From: Polyangiaceae bacterium
GTDB lineage: Bacteria > Myxococcota_A > Polyangia > Polyangiales > Polyangiaceae
Length of the DNA: 58,709 nucleotides
Assembly: GCA_020849655.1 (NCBI GenBank)
Contig: JADLFU010000262.1
Location: forward strand, 1 to 58,709
Reading direction: 5' to 3'
Both the position numbers and the translations under genes were made by a program. A model generated the notes under the pieces. That model ran no database searches. It was not told the DNA's origin and saw only the letters and a list, made by a program, of their open reading frames with translations. Below, one piece after another: positions 1,689 through 34,862 of this stretch. Every line of letters starts with the position of its first letter. Positions within the stretch are counted from its first letter, which is position 1.

Positions 1689-2753
1689 TCACCCCGCCGA
1701 TCCGGGCTCTGCGCCGTCGAGCGGCGGGAGGTCCTCTTCGGCGACCTCGCCGGTCGCGGGGTCGTGGGAGCGCTTGGCCGCCGCCTGCTTCACCGCGTCA
1801 CGCGCCTTCGACGCGCGCCCGCCCGCGCTCGGTTTCTCGCCATCGGTCGTGGCCGGCGCCGTCTCGCCGTTCGCGCGCGCCTCGATCACTGCGTGCCACG
1901 TGGTCTCGCCGTCCTTGATCGCGGCGTAAACGGCGCGGAGCTCGGTCAGCTCTGCCGGCACCACCGTCGCGACGTCGTGCCCGAGAAAGCGGCGGAGCTC
2001 GCCGGGGCCCACGTTGATCGCGGCGAACGCGTCCACCACCTTGCGGAGCGCCGCGTCGGGATCGGCCTTGTCGCGCGATCGCTGCGTCTCGACCACCTGC
2101 TCCATGCACTCCTCCACGATGTCGCCCGGCACGACGCGCAGCACGTTCGTGCGGATGGCCTTCGACACGAGCGCGGACTGCTTGACGAGCATCTCATCCT
2201 CGGTCGCGGCGACGAGATAGACCATCTTCCCTTCGCTGTTCTCGCGCACCGAGATCGTCTCGCGTCCGCGGTTGTCGCGCCGCTCCACGACCTTTTCGAT
2301 CGTGATGTCGATCGAGAACGTGGTGTTCGTCTCGAGGTCGCTCACCGCGACGCGCACCAGGCGCTTCTCGGAATCGTCGTAGAGCGTGGGCGTCGAGATG
2401 TCGACATTGCCCATGATCCGCGCGGCCGCCTCCGCGAAACGGATCGACGGACCCGTAATCGACTTGCCGCCGACGGGCTTCGCGTAGCGCGCGACCGCCG
2501 CGAAGCCCGGACGCCGGCACTCCTTCAGGAGCCGCACGCGCACGTCCTCGATGTCGCGCGGCCGCTGGAGCGCCATGACGTAGCGCGCCTGCACCATCGC
2601 GCGCGACTGCTCGGCCGCCGCCGTGATGCTCGTTTCCGCGCGTCGCGTGATCTCGGTCTCGCCGAAGCCGTCGCGCCGCGTGATCTCGCCGCCCCCGTGG
2701 TCGCTCGTGCGAGCGAGCGCCGAGCCCCCTCCGTTGCCGTTGCCCATGCTCAT
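1689..2753 (-). CDS. Putative recombination-associated protein (exonuclease partner)
   Basis: About 354 residues; the ATG overlaps the exonuclease stop as ATGA (a second ATG two codons in has better Shine-Dalgarno spacing). It contains VGGKSITGPSIRFAEAAAR, a signature I associate with a widespread phage protein encoded beside YqaJ-type exonucleases. The middle has alternating strands (SIDITIEKVVERRDNRGR), while the C-terminus is Ala/Glu-rich and probably disordered. By position and genetic linkage it may be the annealing partner of the exonuclease, in the role of Beta or RecT. It does not show a RecT or Erf signature I can recognise, so the role is inference. Confidence 0.6.
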   Translation of the reverse strand: MSMGNGNGGGSALARTSDHGGGEITRRDGFGETEITRRAETSITAAAEQSRAMVQARYVMALQRPRDIEDVRVRLLKECRRPGFAAVARYAKPVGGKSITGPSIRFAEAAARIMGNVDISTPTLYDDSEKRLVRVAVSDLETNTTFSIDITIEKVVERRDNRGRETISVRENSEGKMVYLVAATEDEMLVKQSALVSKAIRTNVLRVVPGDIVEECMEQVVETQRSRDKADPDAALRKVVDAFAAINVGPGELRRFLGHDVATVVPAELTELRAVYAAIKDGETTWHAVIEARANGETAPATTDGEKPSAGGRASKARDAVKQAAAKRSHDPATGEVAEEDLPPLDGAEPGSAG

Positions 2754-4090
2754 GCTCCCTTCATGCGCACGTCGAGCGCGCGCGTTGGCTGTCCCGTGTG
2801 ACGCGCGATGATGTCGCCGCGACTCTCCGCGCCGAGCTCCATCGCGACATCCTTCCAGCGCACCGAGCCCGCGCGTGCCTGCCACTTGGCGCGACCCCAC
2901 GGGCCCTCGATCCCTTCCGCGTCGCCGATCTCGAGGCGCAATTCGTTCGCGACGTTCTCCTGGCGCTCCTCGATCGTCTTGACCGCGCGGCGCAACCGTT
3001 CGTAGCGCTTCGCCAGGCGCTCCCCGTGCGCAGTCGCCGCGACCATCCCGCGGCGCACGCGCGGGTAGAGCGCCTCGACCGTTTTGCGCCCGACGCCGTG
3101 CTCTGCCGACGGCAACGCGCCGCCCTTCACGCAGTCGGACCAAAACGGGCGCGCGATGGCGCGAAGGTCGTCGAGGAAGTCGACGTCGAGCTCGACTTCG
3201 TAGACGCGCGTCTCGGTGCCGATCTGCGCGACGACGTTCGCGCGCGAGAGGCGAGCGACCCCCATCTCCCACGTGACCTGCGCGTAGACCTCGGGCGGGA
3301 TCCCGTCGGCGCCGAGATCCGTCGAGTCCCATCGGCGCGCTTGGCGCAGTCCGACGAGTTTGCACTGCACGTCGATCGCGCCGTCGGCAATCGCGTCGGG
3401 CGTGGCGCCCATGAACGGCTCGTCGGCATCGAGCAGCGTGCCGGGATACGCGAGCGAGACGCCGCGCCGCGGCGCGTAGAGCCCCTCGAGGATCGGTCGC
3501 TCAAGCACGTTCCCCGCCTCGGCTTCGGGTCCCGCCTTGTCCTCGATGACGCCGCGGAGCTGCGCCCACACGTCGAGCGCCGTCTTGTAGGGGTGGAGCC
3601 CGGCGACGGCCGCGATGCGCGAGCCGCCGAGGTAGCTGTCGTACGGGAGCGTCGGTCCCTGCGCCGTCACCGCGCGTCCCCCGTCCTCGTCGCTCGGCTC
3701 GCTGCCGTCCCACGCGTCGAGCGGCCCGTCGTAGATCACACGCCCGCCGTGCGTGACCCGCAGCAAGAGCGTCGCGGGCCCGCGCTCGAGGATCGGCCGA
3801 TCGGGCCGGATGTCGTACGCGTAGCCGCCCCACCCGGGGTCGTCCTCCGTGACGTAGTGCCCGCCGACGCCAGTCTTGAGCCGCGCGATGAGCTGCGCCG
3901 CGAAACAGCCCATGCCGTTGGCGGTGCCTTTGCCGTCGCCGCGGATGCCGCACGTGATCGGCATGCCCTTCGCGAAGGCGAGCAGGTCTCGGCCGTGACC
4001 GTCCGGGTAGCCGTCGAGTTGCCGGTACAGCGTGACGAGCGGCGTCTCGGCGCCGTGCTCGAAGATCCTGGTGAGTGCGTGTGTTCCCAT
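2750..4090 (-). CDS. YqaJ-like 5'-3' exonuclease fused to an N-terminal phage domain
   Basis: 446 residues in two parts. Residues 1 to about 125 (MGTHALTRIF..., with GYPDGHG, NGMGCFAAQ and GGHYV) resemble a protein I know as a separate small phage/bacterial gene. Residues about 150-340 are a YqaJ/lambda-Exo type nuclease: GGSRIAAVAGLHPY, the acidic E197 region, ATPDAIADG with D232, and VQCK (242-244) at the place of the usual E-x-K. A helical C-terminal tail follows. Such enzymes degrade the 5' strand at double-strand ends for annealing-type recombination. The start overlaps the upstream stop as TAATG. The fusion and the Q-x-K variant are the odd points. Confidence 0.8.
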   Translation of the reverse strand: MGTHALTRIFEHGAETPLVTLYRQLDGYPDGHGRDLLAFAKGMPITCGIRGDGKGTANGMGCFAAQLIARLKTGVGGHYVTEDDPGWGGYAYDIRPDRPILERGPATLLLRVTHGGRVIYDGPLDAWDGSEPSDEDGGRAVTAQGPTLPYDSYLGGSRIAAVAGLHPYKTALDVWAQLRGVIEDKAGPEAEAGNVLERPILEGLYAPRRGVSLAYPGTLLDADEPFMGATPDAIADGAIDVQCKLVGLRQARRWDSTDLGADGIPPEVYAQVTWEMGVARLSRANVVAQIGTETRVYEVELDVDFLDDLRAIARPFWSDCVKGGALPSAEHGVGRKTVEALYPRVRRGMVAATAHGERLAKRYERLRRAVKTIEERQENVANELRLEIGDAEGIEGPWGRAKWQARAGSVRWKDVAMELGAESRGDIIARHTGQPTRALDVRMKGA

Positions 4091-4314: not shown

Positions 4315-4490
4315 GCGTCCCCCGAGGCGTAGCGGACGAGCAGCGCCGCGATGGCTGACTCGATGGTCGAGCCCACGGCCGCGCGTCCGCCGGTCCACAC
4401 GAGCCACGTGCCGCGCCGCTGGTGTGCGTGCAGCGGGAGCCAGCCGGGGGCGCGGAGAGCGGCGTTCAAGGTAACGAGCGCGTCCGTCAC
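4311..4490 (-). CDS. Small hypothetical protein
   Basis: 59 residues from a GTG that overlaps the DnaQ-like gene stop as GTGA. Tryptophan-containing middle (GWLPLHAHQRRGTWLVW) and an Ala-rich helical end. The track-length frame extends upstream, but the coupled GTG is the better start. Function unknown. Confidence 0.55.
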   Translation of the reverse strand: MTDALVTLNAALRAPGWLPLHAHQRRGTWLVWTGGRAAVGSTIESAIAALLVRYASGDA

Positions 4491-5149
4491 AACGACGCTC
4501 CGTTCGCGCGCGACTCCACCCACGCGCGGTGCCGCGCCTCCTGCTCTTTCGCGAGCGCGTATTGCTGCGAGAGCGCCTCGTCGAGATCAGCCGGGATCTT
4601 CCCTTCGGTCCCGAGCTTCACGAGGAGACGCGCGCACGCGAGCGCGTCACCCTTCGCGCGGTGCGCATCGCCGTGCTCGACGCCGCGGCGCGCGCAGGTG
4701 ACCGAGAGTCTGTGGCGCCCCTCGCCCTTGACGTACCGGTCGCGCTCGCGAATCCACACGAGCGGATCGAGCCAGCGCGACGCGGGATGAAGCGCCGCCG
4801 GCATGAGGCCGTACGGGTCCGCACGCAGCCACTCGGCGCCGATGAAGCCGCGATCGAAGGGCGCGTTGTACGCGACAGGGATCGCGCCGCTCATCGCCTC
4901 TGCGAGGGTGCTAGCGAGCGCGTGAAACGGATCGGCGCTGGCGACGTCGTCATCGCCGATGCCATGGATCTCAGTCGCCTCCGGCGGGATCGGCGAGCCC
5001 GGATTCGTGAGCCACGCGATGCCTGGCAAGATGTTGCCCCGCTCGATCGCGACGAGTGCGATCTCGACGATGCGGTGTGCGCGCGGATCGAGTCCGGTCG
5101 TCTCGACGTCGAGCACAAGGAGCGACTGATCGAGCCAGCGCGGCATCAC
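4487..5149 (-). CDS. DnaQ-like DEDDh 3'-5' exonuclease
   Basis: 220 residues. Exo I motif DVETTGLD near residue 14, EIHGIGDDDV typical of the epsilon-family after the second strand, AYNAPFDRGF as Exo II, and HRAKGDALACARL as Exo III with the catalytic His/Asp. This is the fold of the DNA polymerase III proofreading subunit and of free-standing phage exonucleases. No phage polymerase is seen in the window, so it may act on its own or with host polymerase, or trim DNA ends in recombination. Start is either a GTG overlapping the upstream stop (GTGA) or an ATG one codon later. Confidence 0.85.
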   Translation of the reverse strand: MMPRWLDQSLLVLDVETTGLDPRAHRIVEIALVAIERGNILPGIAWLTNPGSPIPPEATEIHGIGDDDVASADPFHALASTLAEAMSGAIPVAYNAPFDRGFIGAEWLRADPYGLMPAALHPASRWLDPLVWIRERDRYVKGEGRHRLSVTCARRGVEHGDAHRAKGDALACARLLVKLGTEGKIPADLDEALSQQYALAKEQEARHRAWVESRANGASL

Positions 5150-5530: not shown

Positions 5531-6042
5531 CAGCCCGCCTCTCCGCCGCGCGTCGAGCGCGACCGTCCACGCGCCGCACCGCCGTTGCACGCGCCGTGGT
5601 GCCGCGCGTGGCCACAGTGCTCGCACCGCGTACGCAGACGACGCTCGATCTCGCGCTCGCCCCCGGACTCGTCGCCGCCGAACCCGGAACACGGCCGCAG
5701 CTCCCCGCGCTCGATCGCGGACAGGTCCGCGGGGACCACGCCGACCGCGAACGCTGCCTCGCGCAGGCCAAGATCGAGCGACACGCGGAGGTCGTGCAGG
5801 CGCGTCCCGCGCGCCTCGTCGTCGGCGGGGAAGAGCGGCGACCTTGATACGGAGACAACGCTGCGCGCTCCGATGGCTGCGGTGCACACGATCGCCGGAA
5901 CCTCGCGATAGCCAGCAGGCTCGACGCGATGGAGGTGCAGGCCAGAGTCGACGATCACGCGCGACGTGTCGAGCGCGGGGCCCGTCGATAGCGTTGCGCC
6001 GAACCATGCGGCTGGCGTGTCTCTGCGCGGGCTCGTGCTCAC
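5530..6042 (-). CDS. XRE-family regulator with C-terminal cysteine cluster
   Basis: 170 residues from a GTG that overlaps the upstream stop (GTGA). An extended N-terminal segment is followed by a helix-turn-helix of the XRE/HTH_3 type at about residues 85-120 (LRVSLDLGLREAAFAVGV, then DLSAIERGEL). The C-terminus has RCEHCGHARHHGACNGG, a Cys/His cluster that could bind zinc. It is the second gene of the early leftward operon and could be a secondary early regulator. The Cys/His tail on an XRE domain is unusual. Confidence 0.7.
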   Translation of the reverse strand: MSTSPRRDTPAAWFGATLSTGPALDTSRVIVDSGLHLHRVEPAGYREVPAIVCTAAIGARSVVSVSRSPLFPADDEARGTRLHDLRVSLDLGLREAAFAVGVVPADLSAIERGELRPCSGFGGDESGGEREIERRLRTRCEHCGHARHHGACNGGAARGRSRSTRGGEAG

Positions 6043-6611
6043 GACCAATCCCCCGCGTCGGCGAATCCGTCGCAGTCGTCGAGGGCGCTCAGCTCCTGGC
6101 GCTCGAGCACGCGATCCGCCGCCAGCTCGGCCGCGTCGTCGCCGTCGTCGCAGTCGCAGTCGCAGTCGTCGGTCTCGCCGCACTCCTCGCAGAGCCCCAG
6201 GAGCGCAGCGGCGCCGGGCCGCAGGCCGCCGTCGTGCGAGGGCGGCGGGGCCGGCGCGCAGTCGTTGCAGACGTCGGTGTAGCCGACGAGCCCGTCCGCC
6301 AGCCCGCAGCCGCACGCCGCGCAGAGATGCGCCGCGCACGACTCGCAGGCGCGGTCGGTGCCGCAGGGACGCGACGCGGCGCAGGGCACGTGGTCGCCGC
6401 AGCCGGCGCACTCGACGCGGTCGGCGTCCTGCGCGCGCTGCGCCGCCACGGAGCGGACGCTCGCGGCCCAGCGCTGGATCCGCTCGTTGCTCGCGTTGCG
6501 CGCCGCGAGGTCCGCGAGCCTGCATGCGTCGGGCTCGCCGACGGCGAAGGCGCCGATCACCGCGAGACCGGCGAGGGGGGAGAGGGCGAGGGTGGTGGTG
6601 GTGAGCGGCAT
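6039..6611 (-). CDS. Cysteine-rich acidic protein, first gene of early leftward operon
   Basis: 190 residues. The N-terminal hydrophobic stretch (LTTTTLALSPLAGLAVIGAF) could be a weak membrane helix. The middle has many cysteines in zinc-knuckle spacing (CAGCGDHVPC, CESCAAHLCAACGCG, VCNDC). The C-terminus has CEECGETDDCDCDCDDGDD, an Asp/Cys-rich tail. The start has a good AAGGAG Shine-Dalgarno 8 nt upstream and a 20-nt leader from the promoter. Being first transcribed suggests an immediate-early host-takeover role, but function is not known. Confidence 0.7.
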   Translation of the reverse strand: MPLTTTTLALSPLAGLAVIGAFAVGEPDACRLADLAARNASNERIQRWAASVRSVAAQRAQDADRVECAGCGDHVPCAASRPCGTDRACESCAAHLCAACGCGLADGLVGYTDVCNDCAPAPPPSHDGGLRPGAAALLGLCEECGETDDCDCDCDDGDDAAELAADRVLERQELSALDDCDGFADAGDWS

Positions 6612-6630: not shown

Positions 6631-6679
6631 GGAGACAGTTGTATCGCCGACCTCACCCCTCGTCAATACTTTTGTATCG
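6631..6679. promoter_or_regulatory. Left operator pair OL1 and OL2
   Basis: Two palindromic 16-mers: GGAGACAGTTGTATCG at 6631-6646 and CAATACTTTTGTATCG at 6664-6679. The shared dyad is GGA(G/T)ACA-NN-TGTATCC. Their start-to-start distance is 33 bp. OL1 covers the -10 and OL2 touches the -35 of the leftward early promoter. The same two-site layout, mirrored, stands at the other side of the repressor gene. Confidence 0.8.
6638..6666 (-). promoter_or_regulatory. Early leftward promoter PL
   Basis: On the minus strand TTGACG (-35), 17-nt spacer, TACAAC (-10). The predicted transcript starts near 6631, about 20 nt before the first ATG. It sits fully inside the left operator pair, so repressor binding should shut it off. 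Confidence 0.75.
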
Positions 6680-6721
6680 GTCGCGTGCGCTTTTCTCCGA
6701 GAGCCCGGAAGCAGCGCGAAT

Positions 6722-7123
6722 TCAGCGCGACCGCGCCTTCTCGCGGGTGCCGGACTCCTCCTCGTCGCGCCGCCTTTGCGCCTCTCGCAGCTCAGCCGTG
6801 TCCGCCGCGATGCGAGCGAGCGTGGCCGCCTGATCGGACGGCGCGCGCGCCGCGAGATACTGGCGGTAGTCGAGATCGTCGGGGCCGGCGCAGACGAAAA
6901 AGTCGACGGGCAACCCGAGTCGTTGCCACAGGGCGAAGATCATCTCGGGCCCCGGCCCACGGCTGCCGTCGAGAGCCTTGCTCACGGTGTTCGCGTGGAC
7001 CCCAAGCCGCGCCGCGACCTTCGCTTGCGCGCCGCGATCGTCGCCGGCCTCTCGGAGCAGCTGCCCCATGAGCGATTGCAGTCGCGCGATGCGACGGGGG
7101 TCGTCCTTGCGTCGTTTCGGCAT
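6722..7123 (-). CDS. CI-like phage repressor (XRE family)
   Basis: 133 residues from ATG (MPKRRKDD...). The helix-turn-helix is at about residues 33-55: AQAKVAARLGVHANTVSKAL. The C-terminal half (PVDFFVCAGPDDLDY..., then a charged helix) has no S24/LexA-type autoprotease signature, so induction would need another route than RecA-driven self-cleavage. It lies between two promoters with matching operators, as expected for the immunity repressor. The Shine-Dalgarno GGAGG is only 1 nt from ATG, which suggests weak translation or a different start. The operators next to its own upstream side offer autoregulation. Confidence 0.8.
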   Translation of the reverse strand: MPKRRKDDPRRIARLQSLMGQLLREAGDDRGAQAKVAARLGVHANTVSKALDGSRGPGPEMIFALWQRLGLPVDFFVCAGPDDLDYRQYLAARAPSDQAATLARIAADTAELREAQRRRDEEESGTREKARSR

Positions 7124-7147
7124 GCCTCCGATCGTCGTCTCGCCAAC

Positions 7148-7196
7148 CGAGACATTGGTATTGACAACCGACGGGGCATCGGATACACATGTCTCC
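7148..7196. promoter_or_regulatory. Right operator pair OR2 and OR1
   Basis: CGAGACATTGGTATTG at 7148-7163 and GGATACACATGTCTCC at 7181-7196, again 33 bp apart start to start. The second is a near-perfect palindrome and is the reverse complement of OL1 with three differences. OR1 covers the -10 of the rightward promoter and OR2 touches its -35, mirror-imaging the left pair to the base. Confidence 0.8.
7161..7189 (+). promoter_or_regulatory. Early rightward promoter PR
   Basis: TTGACA (-35), 17-nt spacer, TACACA (-10). The expected start point is at about 7195-7198, on or just before the ATG at 7198, so the first mRNA may be leaderless. Confidence 0.75.
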
Positions 7197-7197
7197 G

Positions 7198-7680
7198 ATG
7201 GATGCCCCCTCCGACGCTCGGACGCGGTTTTCCGCGTGGGTCGAATCGGTCGGGCGGAAAGAGGCCGCCGCGATTCTCGATTGCCACTGGACCTATCCGG
7301 GGCTCGTGATCCGCGGGGAGCGCATCCCGCAGCGACTCCTGGCGCACGCGATCGAGCAAGCCACGGCGTCATGGCCGAGCGGGCCGATTCGCGCCGAGGA
7401 GTGGGACGAGATCGACCCCGAGCGCATGGAGCGCGAGAGGCGCAAGGCGGCCGCAGACGCCGCCTCCGAGCAGCAGACCTCCGAGCCGGACGCGGCGGAG
7501 GCCACGATGATGGACCACGCCGCTCACATCGACCGCGAGTCCGCCCGCTCCCTCTCCGACGCCGCCTGGCGCTCGACCCTGCGGCACGTCCGCGACGGCG
7601 AGAGCGACGCGCAGGCCGCGTGGCAGGAGCGGTATCGCGAGGTCGCGGGGATGTGGGTCGATCACGGCGGGGAGGGCTGA
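7198..7680 (+). CDS. Cro-like DNA-binding protein
   Basis: 160 residues from the ATG at the predicted transcription start; an earlier in-frame ATG (7189) would lie inside the -10. Residues 8-50 (TRFSAWVESVGRKEAAAILD, then HWTYPGLVIRGERIPQRLL) fit a compact Cro/XRE-type HTH. The remainder is a charged helical region. First gene of the rightward operon and divergent from the repressor, the usual place of Cro. No Shine-Dalgarno is present, consistent with leaderless translation. Confidence 0.7.
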   Translation: MDAPSDARTRFSAWVESVGRKEAAAILDCHWTYPGLVIRGERIPQRLLAHAIEQATASWPSGPIRAEEWDEIDPERMERERRKAAADAASEQQTSEPDAAEATMMDHAAHIDRESARSLSDAAWRSTLRHVRDGESDAQAAWQERYREVAGMWVDHGGEG

Positions 7681-7683
7681 GCG

Positions 7684-8145
7684 ATGCGAGAAGACGGCAC
7701 CATCCGCAGTTTCCCGGACGAGGAGTCGGCGATCGCGGCGGGGTTCCGCACGGCGCTTTCGGAGCACGAGGCGAAGCGACTCAAACGGCTTCCCAAGGCC
7801 AAGCGACACGCCGCGCTCACAGCGATGCGCGCCGACCCCAACTGGCGCCCGACGCCGCACGCTCGACGAGCCCGTTCGCGGGGCGCCCTCCGGCGCGCGC
7901 CGCAGAGCGTGCGGCGCGCCGTTCGGGCCGAGCGCGCGAAGGAAGGGGGGGCGATAGATGCCCGCCCCCAAGACCCTCGCGGTCGACTTCGACGGCGTGA
8001 TCCACGCGTACGTGTCGCCGTGGACGAGGCCCGAGGAGATCCACGATCCGCCCGTGCCCGGCGCCCTGACGTTCCTGAACCTCGCGCGCGAACGGTTCGA
8101 GGTCGTGATCTGCTCGGTGCGTGCCGAGACGCCCGAGGGCCGTGA
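7684..8145 (+). CDS. Small phage protein with over-long reading frame
   Basis: The first ~60 residues (MREDGTIRSFPDEESAIAAG, then LSEHEAKRLKRLPKAKRHAA) look like a real, common small phage protein. The rest becomes Arg/Pro noise and overlaps the next gene by 188 nt. In the +1 frame a TAG stands at 7955-7957, exactly before the ATG of the HAD gene, and a run of seven G at 7945-7951 precedes it. The natural gene therefore probably ends at 7957 and the long frame reflects a one-base indel. Function unknown. Confidence 0.5.
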   Translation: MREDGTIRSFPDEESAIAAGFRTALSEHEAKRLKRLPKAKRHAALTAMRADPNWRPTPHARRARSRGALRRAPQSVRRAVRAERAKEGGAIDARPQDPRGRLRRRDPRVRVAVDEARGDPRSARARRPDVPEPRARTVRGRDLLGACRDARGP

Positions 8146-8326
8146 GGCGATACGCACGTGGCTCATCGAGCACATCGGCAACCCCGAAGCGGGCGCGTGG
8201 TTCCGCATCACGCACGAGAAGCCGAAGGCCGTCGTCTACCTCGACGACCGCGCGTGGCAGTTCGCCGGCACGTTCCCGTCGCTCGACGCGATCGACGCGT
8301 TCCGGCCGTGGAACCGGAGGGGCTGA
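7958..8326 (+). CDS. HAD-like hydrolase
   Basis: 122 residues. Motif I is AVDFDGVIHAY near residue 8, with the nucleophile Asp and acid/base Asp; then EVVICSVRAETPEG as motif II and YLDDRAW as motif IV. This is the compact HAD fold seen in many phage 'polynucleotide kinase 3'-phosphatase-like' or nucleotidase genes. Substrate cannot be told. It probably works in nucleotide or DNA/RNA end metabolism. Confidence 0.75.
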   Translation: MPAPKTLAVDFDGVIHAYVSPWTRPEEIHDPPVPGALTFLNLARERFEVVICSVRAETPEGREAIRTWLIEHIGNPEAGAWFRITHEKPKAVVYLDDRAWQFAGTFPSLDAIDAFRPWNRRG

Positions 8327-8329
8327 GCG

Positions 8330-8785
8330 ATGCCCGCCTTCCGCCATCTCCCCGGCGATCGCCACGGCCGCCTCGTGATCATCGCGCGCGAACCCGGTGG
8401 CGCGATCCGCTGCCGGTGCGACTGCGGCAACGAGCACGTCGTCTCCATCAATCAGTGGAGCAACGGGAAGCGGGGCCGCCGGGGCGGCGTGAAGTCGTGC
8501 GGGTGCCTCATGCGCGAGATCGAAGCGAACGGTCTGCGCGCGAAGGCGCGCGAGATCGGCGTGTCCGTGTCGACGGTCCGCGCTCGGATGCGCCGCGGCG
8601 AGTCGCGCGACGAGGCGCTGCGACCGGCCGCGCCCTACGGTGAGACGCTCACGGCGCGCGACGGCTTCGAGGGCACACGCGCGGCGCACGCCCGCAGGCT
8701 CGGGATCTCGCGGCAGGCGATCGACTATCGGATCAGGAGCGGCTGGGATCCGCATGACGCGATCTCGTTGCCGAGGGAGGGCTGA
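8330..8785 (+). CDS. Zinc-finger DNA-binding protein with two HTH-like repeats
   Basis: 151 residues. HLPGDRHGRLVIIAREPGG, then RCRCDCGNEH and KSCGCLMREI, match the treble-clef domain that often accompanies phage HNH/AP2 homing-type proteins. Two HTH-like units follow: AREIGVSVSTVRARMRRGES and ARRLGISRQAIDYRIRSGW, which resemble each other. There is no HNH catalytic motif, so this looks like the DNA-binding half only. Probably a DNA-binding protein of unknown target. Confidence 0.7.
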   Translation: MPAFRHLPGDRHGRLVIIAREPGGAIRCRCDCGNEHVVSINQWSNGKRGRRGGVKSCGCLMREIEANGLRAKAREIGVSVSTVRARMRRGESRDEALRPAAPYGETLTARDGFEGTRAAHARRLGISRQAIDYRIRSGWDPHDAISLPREG

Positions 8786-13367: not shown

Positions 13368-13376
13368 ATCGCCCTG

Positions 13377-13428
13377 TGCGGAAGAGAGGACTTGAACCTC
13401 CACGGGTGTTACCCCACTGGAACCTGAA
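13377..13428 (-). other. attP: attP core: 3' part of tRNA-Leu
   Basis: On the minus strand 52 nt read as the 3' half of a bacterial tRNA-Leu: anticodon loop TTCAGGT (anticodon CAG), the class-II variable arm GGGTAACACCC, the T arm GAGG-TTCAAGT-CCTC, and the acceptor end CTTCCGCA. The D arm and 5' acceptor strand are absent and anticodon-stem pairing fails upstream, so it is not a functional tRNA. It is the identity segment that would restore a host tRNA-Leu after integration. Position just after the integrase is typical. Confidence 0.85.
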
Positions 13429-13693: not shown

Positions 13694-13721
13694 TTGACAC
13701 CCGGCATACGTGCGCTATTCT
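13694..13721 (+). promoter_or_regulatory. Strong sigma70-like promoter
   Basis: TTGACA, 16-nt spacer, TATTCT in a locally AT-rich stretch. The leader downstream has a perfect hairpin CGGCGG-CAGGAA-CCGCCG just before GGAGGG Shine-Dalgarno and the ATG at 13765. No immunity operator overlaps it, so it may be active in the lysogen. Confidence 0.7.
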
Positions 13722-13764: not shown

Positions 13765-13965
13765 ATGACAACGATCGACAGGTTCGCCGAGCAGCACGGG
13801 ATCGTATTTGTCGGCGAGGGAACCGACCGCGTCTCGACGTGCGCCGTCCCCCTCGCGGTGGCGCGCGAATACGAGCGTCTCGGGCTCGCCGCGGGCCGCG
13901 AGGTCTCGTGGGCGCCGGACCATGACGATCGGAAGTCCGCGTGGATCTACGAGGTGGCGTCGTGA
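13765..13965 (+). CDS. Small hypothetical protein, first of a rightward operon
   Basis: 66 residues (MTTIDRFAEQHGIVFVGEGT...), a mixed alpha/beta small protein with VPLAVAREYERLGLAAG and SAWIYEVAS. Good GGAGGG Shine-Dalgarno 8 nt upstream, own promoter, GTGA overlap with the next gene. It lies between attP and the late region, a usual place for lysogenic-conversion genes. Function unknown. Confidence 0.65.
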   Translation: MTTIDRFAEQHGIVFVGEGTDRVSTCAVPLAVAREYERLGLAAGREVSWAPDHDDRKSAWIYEVAS

Positions 13966-33652: not shown

Positions 33653-34862
33653 TGCGCAAGCCGCTGCGCTCTTCCTCGGTCGGCGTCGCGGTCCACGTCG
33701 TGGCCCGGTCGATGTCGCTCTCGAAGCTCACGCGCTGCCCGCGCTTGCGGCCCTTCGGCGCCGGCTGCACGTCCACGATCTGGATCTTGGGCACATCGAT
33801 CGCGACGCTCTCGCCGGCCGCGTTGCCCATCTGAAACCACAACTGATAGGGAGTCTTCGCGCTCCGCCCCGTCTCCCACGCGAGATCCTCGAAGTTGGGG
33901 AGGAACATGCCTTTGACGAGCGGCCGAACCGGAATTCGCCGGTAGCCTACGACACCCTCGATTCCCGCCGTGCTCTCGTCCTCCTCGTACTCGATCGTCG
34001 GCTGAATCTGGATCTCGGCGACGTGCTGGAGGGAGCGCGCCGTGGCCGCGGCGTAGCCCACGACCTGCAGCTCCGAATCCTTGACGACGCCGCGCCCGCC
34101 ACCGCCGAATGTCGGCTCCGCGAACGTCTCGCCCGTCGTCGCGAGCCACGAGCAGCCGCGGAAATTGAACGTGACCTCGCGGAGCTTGCCGCGCCCGATG
34201 TTCAGCGACATCCCCGAGGACGCGAGTCCGAACGCCTGGAATTGATCCGACCCTTCCTTGCCCTCCAGGATTGCCTGCAGGGTCGCGGTCGGATTGTCCG
34301 CCATGTACGCAGTCGCGGCCCCGTAGACGACGTCGTTCTCGGCGGGCGCATGCGAGAGCGCGATGTTGGTCGTGATCGTGTTGGTCGCGAGCGTCGTGAT
34401 GCGCCGCATCTGGAAGAGGCCCGAGCTGGCGGTCGGCGTGACGCCGATGCATCCGCCCTGGCGCATGTTGGTGCCGCTCGCGACGTCTCCGCTTGACGTC
34501 GTCCACCCCGCGGCTGCCGTGCTCCCCATGTTGGTCCGCACGTCGAGCCCGCCCATCACGTGCTGCAGGATCACGGCGAGCCAATAGGTGCTCCACGCCT
34601 GCGAGCCCGTGAGCGGCGTTCCGTGCGAATCGAGGTATGCCGGCAATTCGAGCGTGCAGCGCTTGAGTCCTGGGATCGAATCGGGCCGCGCGTCCGGGTA
34701 GACCTGAATGGTCTCGTCCGGCAGCATCTCGAGCTGACGCGCGAGCATCGCCTTCCCGCGCACCCGAACAGCATAGGAGCTGTTCCAGTTGGCGGGCGCG
34801 GTACCGAAGGTGCCCTCCGTCTGGATGCGGACCTTCTGTAGCCGATCGACTTCGACGCTCAT
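33639..34862 (-). CDS. Major tail tube protein
   Basis: 407 residues. Starts EVDRLQKVRIQTEGTFGTAP; contains QRVSFESDIDRATTWTATPT at the end and many beta strands (GKLREVTFNFRGCSWLATTG; YRRIPVRPLVKGMFLPNFED). The segment GTFGTAP and strand order are those of major tail proteins of the phage lambda V/TP901 kind in its longer two-domain form. Strong CACAGGAG Shine-Dalgarno shared with the major capsid gene, as expected for high expression. Confidence 0.8.
   Translation of the reverse strand: MSVEVDRLQKVRIQTEGTFGTAPANWNSSYAVRVRGKAMLARQLEMLPDETIQVYPDARPDSIPGLKRCTLELPAYLDSHGTPLTGSQAWSTYWLAVILQHVMGGLDVRTNMGSTAAAGWTTSSGDVASGTNMRQGGCIGVTPTASSGLFQMRRITTLATNTITTNIALSHAPAENDVVYGAATAYMADNPTATLQAILEGKEGSDQFQAFGLASSGMSLNIGRGKLREVTFNFRGCSWLATTGETFAEPTFGGGGRGVVKDSELQVVGYAAATARSLQHVAEIQIQPTIEYEEDESTAGIEGVVGYRRIPVRPLVKGMFLPNFEDLAWETGRSAKTPYQLWFQMGNAAGESVAIDVPKIQIVDVQPAPKGRKRGQRVSFESDIDRATTWTATPTEEERSGLRIHLG

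Follow-up and report, generated by a model that had tools for sequence, protein, structure and literature searches.

Which arrangement of operators may keep the early promoters of a temperate phage silent, and how far does it depart from that of lambda? The question is raised by a locus in a 58,709-nt stretch of DNA from a Polyangiaceae bacterium (the window), in which a preliminary description, made from the sequence alone, had placed a repressor gene between two pairs of dyad sites.

The phage contig and its repressor and Cro-like genes

The window is a 58.7-kb contig (C262) of a 6.56-Mb assembly (307 contigs), with a GC content of about 70%. Family searches detected portal, large terminase and integrase-like genes. 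These occur together with RecE/YqaJ and RNase T-type exonucleases. The contig is a tailed temperate phage or prophage, and the region of interest is very probably its immunity region. The leftward operon starts with a Cys-rich gene of 190 aa (6039-6611, minus strand), for which no family match was found in Pfam or PHROGs, and includes an RNase T-type exonuclease (4487-5149, minus; Pfam RNase_T 4e-22, phrog_192 2e-47), a YqaJ/RecE-like recombination exonuclease (2750-4090, minus; Pfam YqaJ 2.7e-12, phrog_434 1.3e-44) and a phrog_3657 protein (1689-2759, minus; 1.1e-56), listed in PHROGs as of unknown function and without relatives in IMG/VR. YqaJ relatives were present in 3 other genomes of 183, and the terminase relatives (n = 4) all lay on short contigs. 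In the rightward operon, the gene at 7958-8326 (plus) resembled phosphatases of the HAD/polynucleotide-kinase type (phrog_23773, 1.3e-17; Pfam HAD_SAK_2 below the cut-off) and was followed by an HNH-type gene (8330-8785). Beside the integrase, positions 13376-13428 shared 89% identity over 53 nt with part of a host locus (G000:C218, L017) that carries tRNA-Leu(CAG), a complete gene by ARAGORN; this stretch is a likely attachment site.

Families, folds and gene order identified divergent genes for a repressor (133 aa; 6722-7123, minus) and a Cro-like HTH protein (160 aa; 7198-7680, plus, from the ATG at 7198), separated by 74 bp. The Cro-like protein was assigned from alignments with relatives, a structure model and a fold match. 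The repressor model (mean pLDDT 78) was all helical, with a five-helix HTH domain (helices 9-77) and a low-confidence C-terminal helix (95-130, pLDDT about 50-70). Its fold neighbours included TP901-1 CI (Z 6.3, rmsd 2.6, 70 residues aligned), P22 c2 (Z 5.9, 2.8, 65) and a Salmonella-phage repressor complexed with an antirepressor (Z 6.0, 3.4, 73); middling Z values of about 6, such as these, are common. For the Cro-like protein (model pLDDT 83), the matches included P22 c2 (Z 8.1, 3.2, 64) and 434 Cro (Z 6.6, 2.8, 61). Foldseek returned no match for either model at E <=0.001, and VIA-align listed none for the C-terminal part of the repressor, which is not evidence of absence. On the models, both predicted folds are lambda-repressor-like HTH.

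The repressor had been described as having no self-cleaving domain, and this was upheld. Pfam (E <=0.01) detected HTH families only and no peptidase domain in ten repressors (that of the window and nine relatives), the model was helical throughout, and no RecA-stimulated self-cleaving (LexA/S24) C-terminal domain is recognisable in the 133-aa protein. Since Pfam found no peptidase domain in any of the ten repressors, induction by self-cleavage is unlikely. A myxobacterial LexA motif had 0 matches. Direct searches of IMG/VR, the genome contigs and phage records detected no close relative of the repressor.

Four predicted operator sites on two early promoters

Four 16-bp sites were present where the preliminary description had placed them, two to the left and two to the right of the repressor gene. 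On the minus strand, the proximal left operator OL1 (6631-6646; leftward CGATACAACTGTCTCC) covers the -10 of the predicted leftward early promoter PL, and the last TTG of the distal left operator OL2 (6664-6679; leftward CGATACAAAAGTATTG) starts the PL -35. On the plus strand, the last TTG of the distal right operator OR2 (7148-7163; CGAGACATTGGTATTG) starts the -35 of the predicted rightward early promoter PR, whose -10 is covered by the proximal right operator OR1 (7181-7196; GGATACACATGTCTCC); the OR1 dyad extends over 7177-7200 with one mismatch. The start-to-start spacing was 33 bp in both pairs. The proposed mirror-image distance from the distal site to the -35 was also confirmed: on both sides the site centre lay at -5.5 relative to the base that opens the -35 (TTGACG from 6666 leftward, TTGACA from 7161 rightward). 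A stem-loop between the repressor start and OR2 (GTCTCG-CCAAC-CGAGAC, 7137-7153) presents an extra half site facing OR2; as a terminator this hairpin was rejected, its occurrence being at chance level (1 vs 0.5 expected).

Promoters were scored at about 117,000 start positions in the window with a simple, general sigma-70 matrix. Each operator pair coincided with one of the five best promoter-like sequences of the window: PR (7161-7189, plus; -35 TTGACA at 7161-7166, 17 bp, -10 TACACA at 7184-7189) ranked second and PL (6638-6666, minus; -35 TTGACG at 6666-6661, 17 bp, -10 TACAAC at 6643-6638) fifth. Both -10 hexamers were poor, and a stricter consensus scan, which demands a final T in the -10 that PL and PR do not have, returned no promoter in the region. 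The sigma-70 matrix yielded no convincing promoter for the repressor gene (best score 0.78); a weak one would be expected if it needs activation. The cro mRNA may be leaderless, since the ATG at 7198 lies only 8 nt beyond the PR -10; a second in-frame ATG, at 7189, overlaps the end of the -10. On the left, a 26-nt gap with AAGGAG separates the PL -10 from the ATG of the 190-aa gene. First in the promoter ranking was a sequence at 13694-13721 (plus; TTGACA-16-TATTCT), which precedes a short gene with its start at 13765 and may be active in the lysogen, because it carries none of these operators.

The dyad itself was described less accurately than the sites. The proposed GGA(G/T)ACA-NN-TGTATCC was fitted exactly only at 7181 (minus strand) and with one mismatch at 6631, while the sites at 6664 and 7148 deviated by more than three mismatches; the distal sites depart from it in part because the TCG expected of the half site gives way to the TTG that the -35 requires. 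Nor was this strict dyad enriched (4 matches vs 2.18 expected), which is what would be seen if the sites were chance dyads in GC-rich DNA. A better-aligned motif stood far above background. Matrices built from three sites placed the fourth, in each case, within the top four of the 58.7 kb. When the window was scanned for further sites, as the preliminary description had proposed, the four sites clearly came first, scoring 22-25 with the matrix of all four; the next best (11.7, at 13867) lies inside an open frame and was set aside as a possible fifth site. The palindrome SGAKACANNTGTMTCS, allowing at most one mismatch, was not scattered over the 6.56-Mb assembly: it matched only at 6631 (OL1) and 7181 (OR1), with 0 matches for a control pattern. 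When the pattern was relaxed to fit all four sites (SRAKACNNNNGTMTYS), it occurred at 34 places in the 6.56 Mb, five of them in the contig (the four sites and 13867).

A de novo pairing test, independent of the motif of the preliminary description, was also performed. It asks of each tile whether two 16-mers that resemble each other lie 20-60 bp apart and whether the matrix built from both picks up a second, remote pair; an earlier statistic of this kind, which left the pairing rule out, had no power. The repressor-cro tile scored 20.3, a value reached by 0 of 170 other tiles (best 13.7) and by none of 60 simulated 15.2-kb sequences (maximum over all tiles 14.3). The AT-rich sites moreover coincide with both early promoters. 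Chance dyads are thus strongly disfavoured, to the point of being hardly credible, and as judged from the sequence the four predicted operator sites are real. The left and right sites were identical at 12 of 16 positions for O2 and 13 of 16 for O1, compared with 5 of 14 spacer and 11 of 41 downstream bases outside the sites (random expectation, a fraction of 0.30). Because the spacers are random-like while O2 and O1 agree, the left-right symmetry is not a recent duplication.

The two-sided plan in distant relatives

Weak repressor matches in genomes of the same order seeded profiles, which were run over 377 genomes of the phylum (E <=1e-6) and detected the repressor in 7 and Cro in 9 genomes, that of the window included. 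The repressor profile gave 10 matches, those in G041 and G301 being outside the locus comparison; the Cro profile gave 13, with G189 (two), G392 (two) and G431 outside it. The same divergent repressor/Cro pair was found at six further loci (L047, L048, L049, L050, L051 and L052), with intergenic gaps of 61-97 bp in L047-L050 and L052. The five relatives' repressors aligned first showed 26-34% identity to that of the window. Used as single queries, the relatives' repressors had no match in the genome contigs and none in IMG/VR save one of 19 residues (L057).

In L049 (G058:C413), sites resembling GCTGACA-NN-TGTCAGC formed a right-hand group of three, with spacings of 24 and 25 bp, and a left-hand pair with a spacing of 25 bp; these were the top five of 16 kb, and TTGACA and TTGACG overlapped the distal-site ends on the two sides. 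In L050, sites like CTTGYCGCRTGGCAWG formed a right pair 29 bp apart and a left pair 52 bp apart, the latter without a clear -35. With 16-nt words, the score of L049 was reached by 0 of 174 tiles and that of L050 by 0 of 209; with 18 and 20 nt, 1 and 4 background tiles scored at or above L050. Two plus two sites with longer words were found in L051, which comes from the same genome as L050 (G181); its score was reached by 0 of 144 tiles at 20 and 22 nt only, and by 13, 13 and 90 of 144 tiles at 16, 18 and 14 nt. At both early promoters of L049, the ATG lies 6-7 nt past the presumed -10, and both transcripts could be leaderless.

No two-sided pair was detected by the pairing test in L047, L048 or L052, all of which have the same gene pair. 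With the window counted in each, 4 of 11 loci were positive, or 4 of the 7 in which both genes were identified; in L053-L056 one gene of the pair is unidentified and the intergenic borders are placeholders. As a control, lambda was recovered (at each of five word widths, its score was reached by 0 or 1 of 138 tiles), while N15 was missed at 16-20 nt and the places found at 14 nt differ from its annotated left operator. Since the test missed the N15 control, its sensitivity is limited, and the misses in L047, L048 and L052-L056 are weak evidence.

The 33-bp spacing had been described as about three helical turns. It does equal 3.14 turns in the window, but this is not general: spacings in the relatives were 24/25, 25, 29, 52, 42 and 21 bp, a range of 21-52 bp against 33 bp in the window. 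The spacing neither supports nor excludes the side-by-side dimer contacts or the loop predicted from it, both of which are possible. That no close relative of the repressor was found limits this comparison to the layout of the sites. Two-sided pairing recurs in distant relatives with unrelated predicted operator sequences, and this sharing of one plan is the most useful new point.

The proposed switch and its relation to known phages

In all likelihood, the locus serves a temperate tailed phage as its immunity region, in which the repressor, at OL1/OL2 and OR1/OR2, silences PL and PR. Dimers of the 133-aa HTH repressor would bind both pairs, the distal site hiding the -35 and the proximal site the -10 at each promoter, and in the lysogen neither the recombination operon on the left nor the cro operon on the right would be expressed. 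During lytic growth, the Cro-like HTH protein made from PR would compete for some or all of the four sites. Induction would take a route other than self-cleavage, most probably an antirepressor, a plausible and natural alternative by analogy with the Gifsy phages (available text of PMC3121763). The operator plan would be that of lambda minus O3, with the proximal site about one helical turn further downstream. The predicted sites, the placement of the promoters, the divergent repressor/cro genes and the recurrence in relatives are readings of the DNA; we infer the binding of the repressor, the cooperativity of its dimers, the role of Cro and the route of induction.

Alternatively, the Cro-like protein or a different regulator might be what chiefly occupies the sites, and the 133-aa protein might act at other places or by way of another signal. 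No single protein is marked out by the sequence as the one that binds them, and such assignments can surprise: in phiKO2, according to the available text of PMC4997575, Cro binds only OR3 and the prophage repressor binds five sites. We nevertheless consider this improbable, given that the sites flank the repressor gene, lie on both early promoters and recur beside relatives of the repressor, which is what a prophage repressor needs. A looped switch would add to binding by the repressor and would not replace it. Repressor bound at OL would join that at OR, about 517 bp away, in a higher oligomer, giving stronger repression, setting the repressor level and taking over the role of O3. The two sites per side and the short distance, similar to that between OL and OR around cB in N15, are consistent with a loop. 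It is rather unlikely, however: no oligomerisation domain was predicted beyond one C-terminal helix (pLDDT about 50-70), and, of the left-right site distances of 484, 517 and 550 bp (46.1, 49.2 and 52.4 turns), the latter two gave no phasing signal. Long-range cooperativity in phiKO2 is reported as unknown in the available text of PMC4997575.

Taking silencing by the repressor at both operator pairs as the preferred reading, it is possible, and we propose it tentatively, that a family of short non-cleavable repressors and Cro proteins (26-34% identity, wholly different operators) kept or independently reached the lambda geometry, by which we mean that PL and PR, as mirror images, each have the distal site on the -35 and the proximal one over the spacer or the -10. 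RNA polymerase, and not the repressor, would then set the layout, and the window would represent a reduced version that does without O3 and maintains lysogeny without lambda's feedback site for repressor level. The layout of lambda recurs beside unrelated predicted operators, and it does so in the absence of O3 and of a cleavable repressor. The sites provide a candidate operator code for a phage group for which no cultured representative was found in this analysis. If the proposal is true, immunity specificities of uncultured phages could be read from sequence by searching for two-sided pairs. The de novo test, which asks for one pair of sites between repressor and cro and another at a distance, is a simple means of decoding the immunity regions of uncultured phages.

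In the portions of the open-licence literature available to us, no description of a two-plus-two operator case was found. The immB regions of N15 and phiKO2, as described in the available text of PMC4997575 and PMC4488713, share with the window 16-bp sites, an OR between repressor and cro, a pair of OL sites directly downstream of the repressor gene, and a comparable distance from OL to OR; the two-site OL is known in phiKO2/N15 (PMC4997575), and the N15 record places OL at 34056-34094 and OR at 34729-34793, flanking cB. N15 and phiKO2 differ in having three OR sites vs two, a left promoter that drives repA and a repressor annotated as LexA-family. Their OL controls a plasmid replication gene; the first leftward gene of the window has no family match, and the exonucleases lie further left. 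L049, with three right and two left sites, has the same count as N15, in contrast to two plus two in the window. A leaderless mRNA has been described from the corresponding region of PY54 (available text of PMC4488713).

Phage 933W, compared by description, is reported to have no OL3 and to keep OR3 (available text of PMC5977221), whereas the window has no O3 on either side. Mycobacteriophage BPs is similar in its unusual and short repressor (gp33, in the gp33-103 form) and in palindromic sites that occur, among other places, in the intergenic region on the rep-cro side; it differs in integration-dependent immunity and in a 12-bp palindrome with a variable half site, and no OL/OR pair flanking the gene is described in the available text of PMC4557955. 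The Gifsy phages have small non-cleaved repressors (about 150 aa) and are induced by LexA-controlled antirepressors (available text of PMC3121763); these repressors are likened by description to that of the window in size and in a plausible induction route.

The closest comparison is with lambda, from which the preliminary description had set the layout apart. Site centres were counted relative to the start of the -35, with lambda taken from the annotated record NC_001416 and the -35 hexamers of the relatives picked by eye. The centres were -29/-6/+18 at PR and -26/-6/+18 at PL in lambda, -5.5/+27.5 on both sides in the window, -30.5/-6.5/+18.5 (right) and -6.5/+18.5 (left) in L049, -10.5/+18.5 on the right of L050, and -8.5/+33.5 and -4.5/+16.5 in L051. 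An O1 near +18, between the -35 and -10, was thus found in L049 and on the right of L050 (+18.5) and not in the window (+27.5). The contrast with three-site lambda held for O3, the 25 best matrix matches in the window including no third site close to PL or PR, and for the proximal site, which is 9.5 bp further downstream. The spacing (20-24 bp in lambda vs 33 bp), the number of sites per side (three vs two) and the LexA-family repressor of lambda, in place of a 133-aa protein without that domain, also differ. The contrast did not extend to the mirror symmetry and the fixed distal-site distance, which are lambda features and not departures, because the distal site of lambda, too, ends in the TTG of the -35 and takes the same place (-6 vs -5.5). 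In both phages, a recombination exonuclease belongs to the left operon, and the repressor gene lies between two operators, which in the window are predicted to sit on both early promoters. The region amounts to a reduced lambda-like immunity switch, of a known kind with a variant layout.
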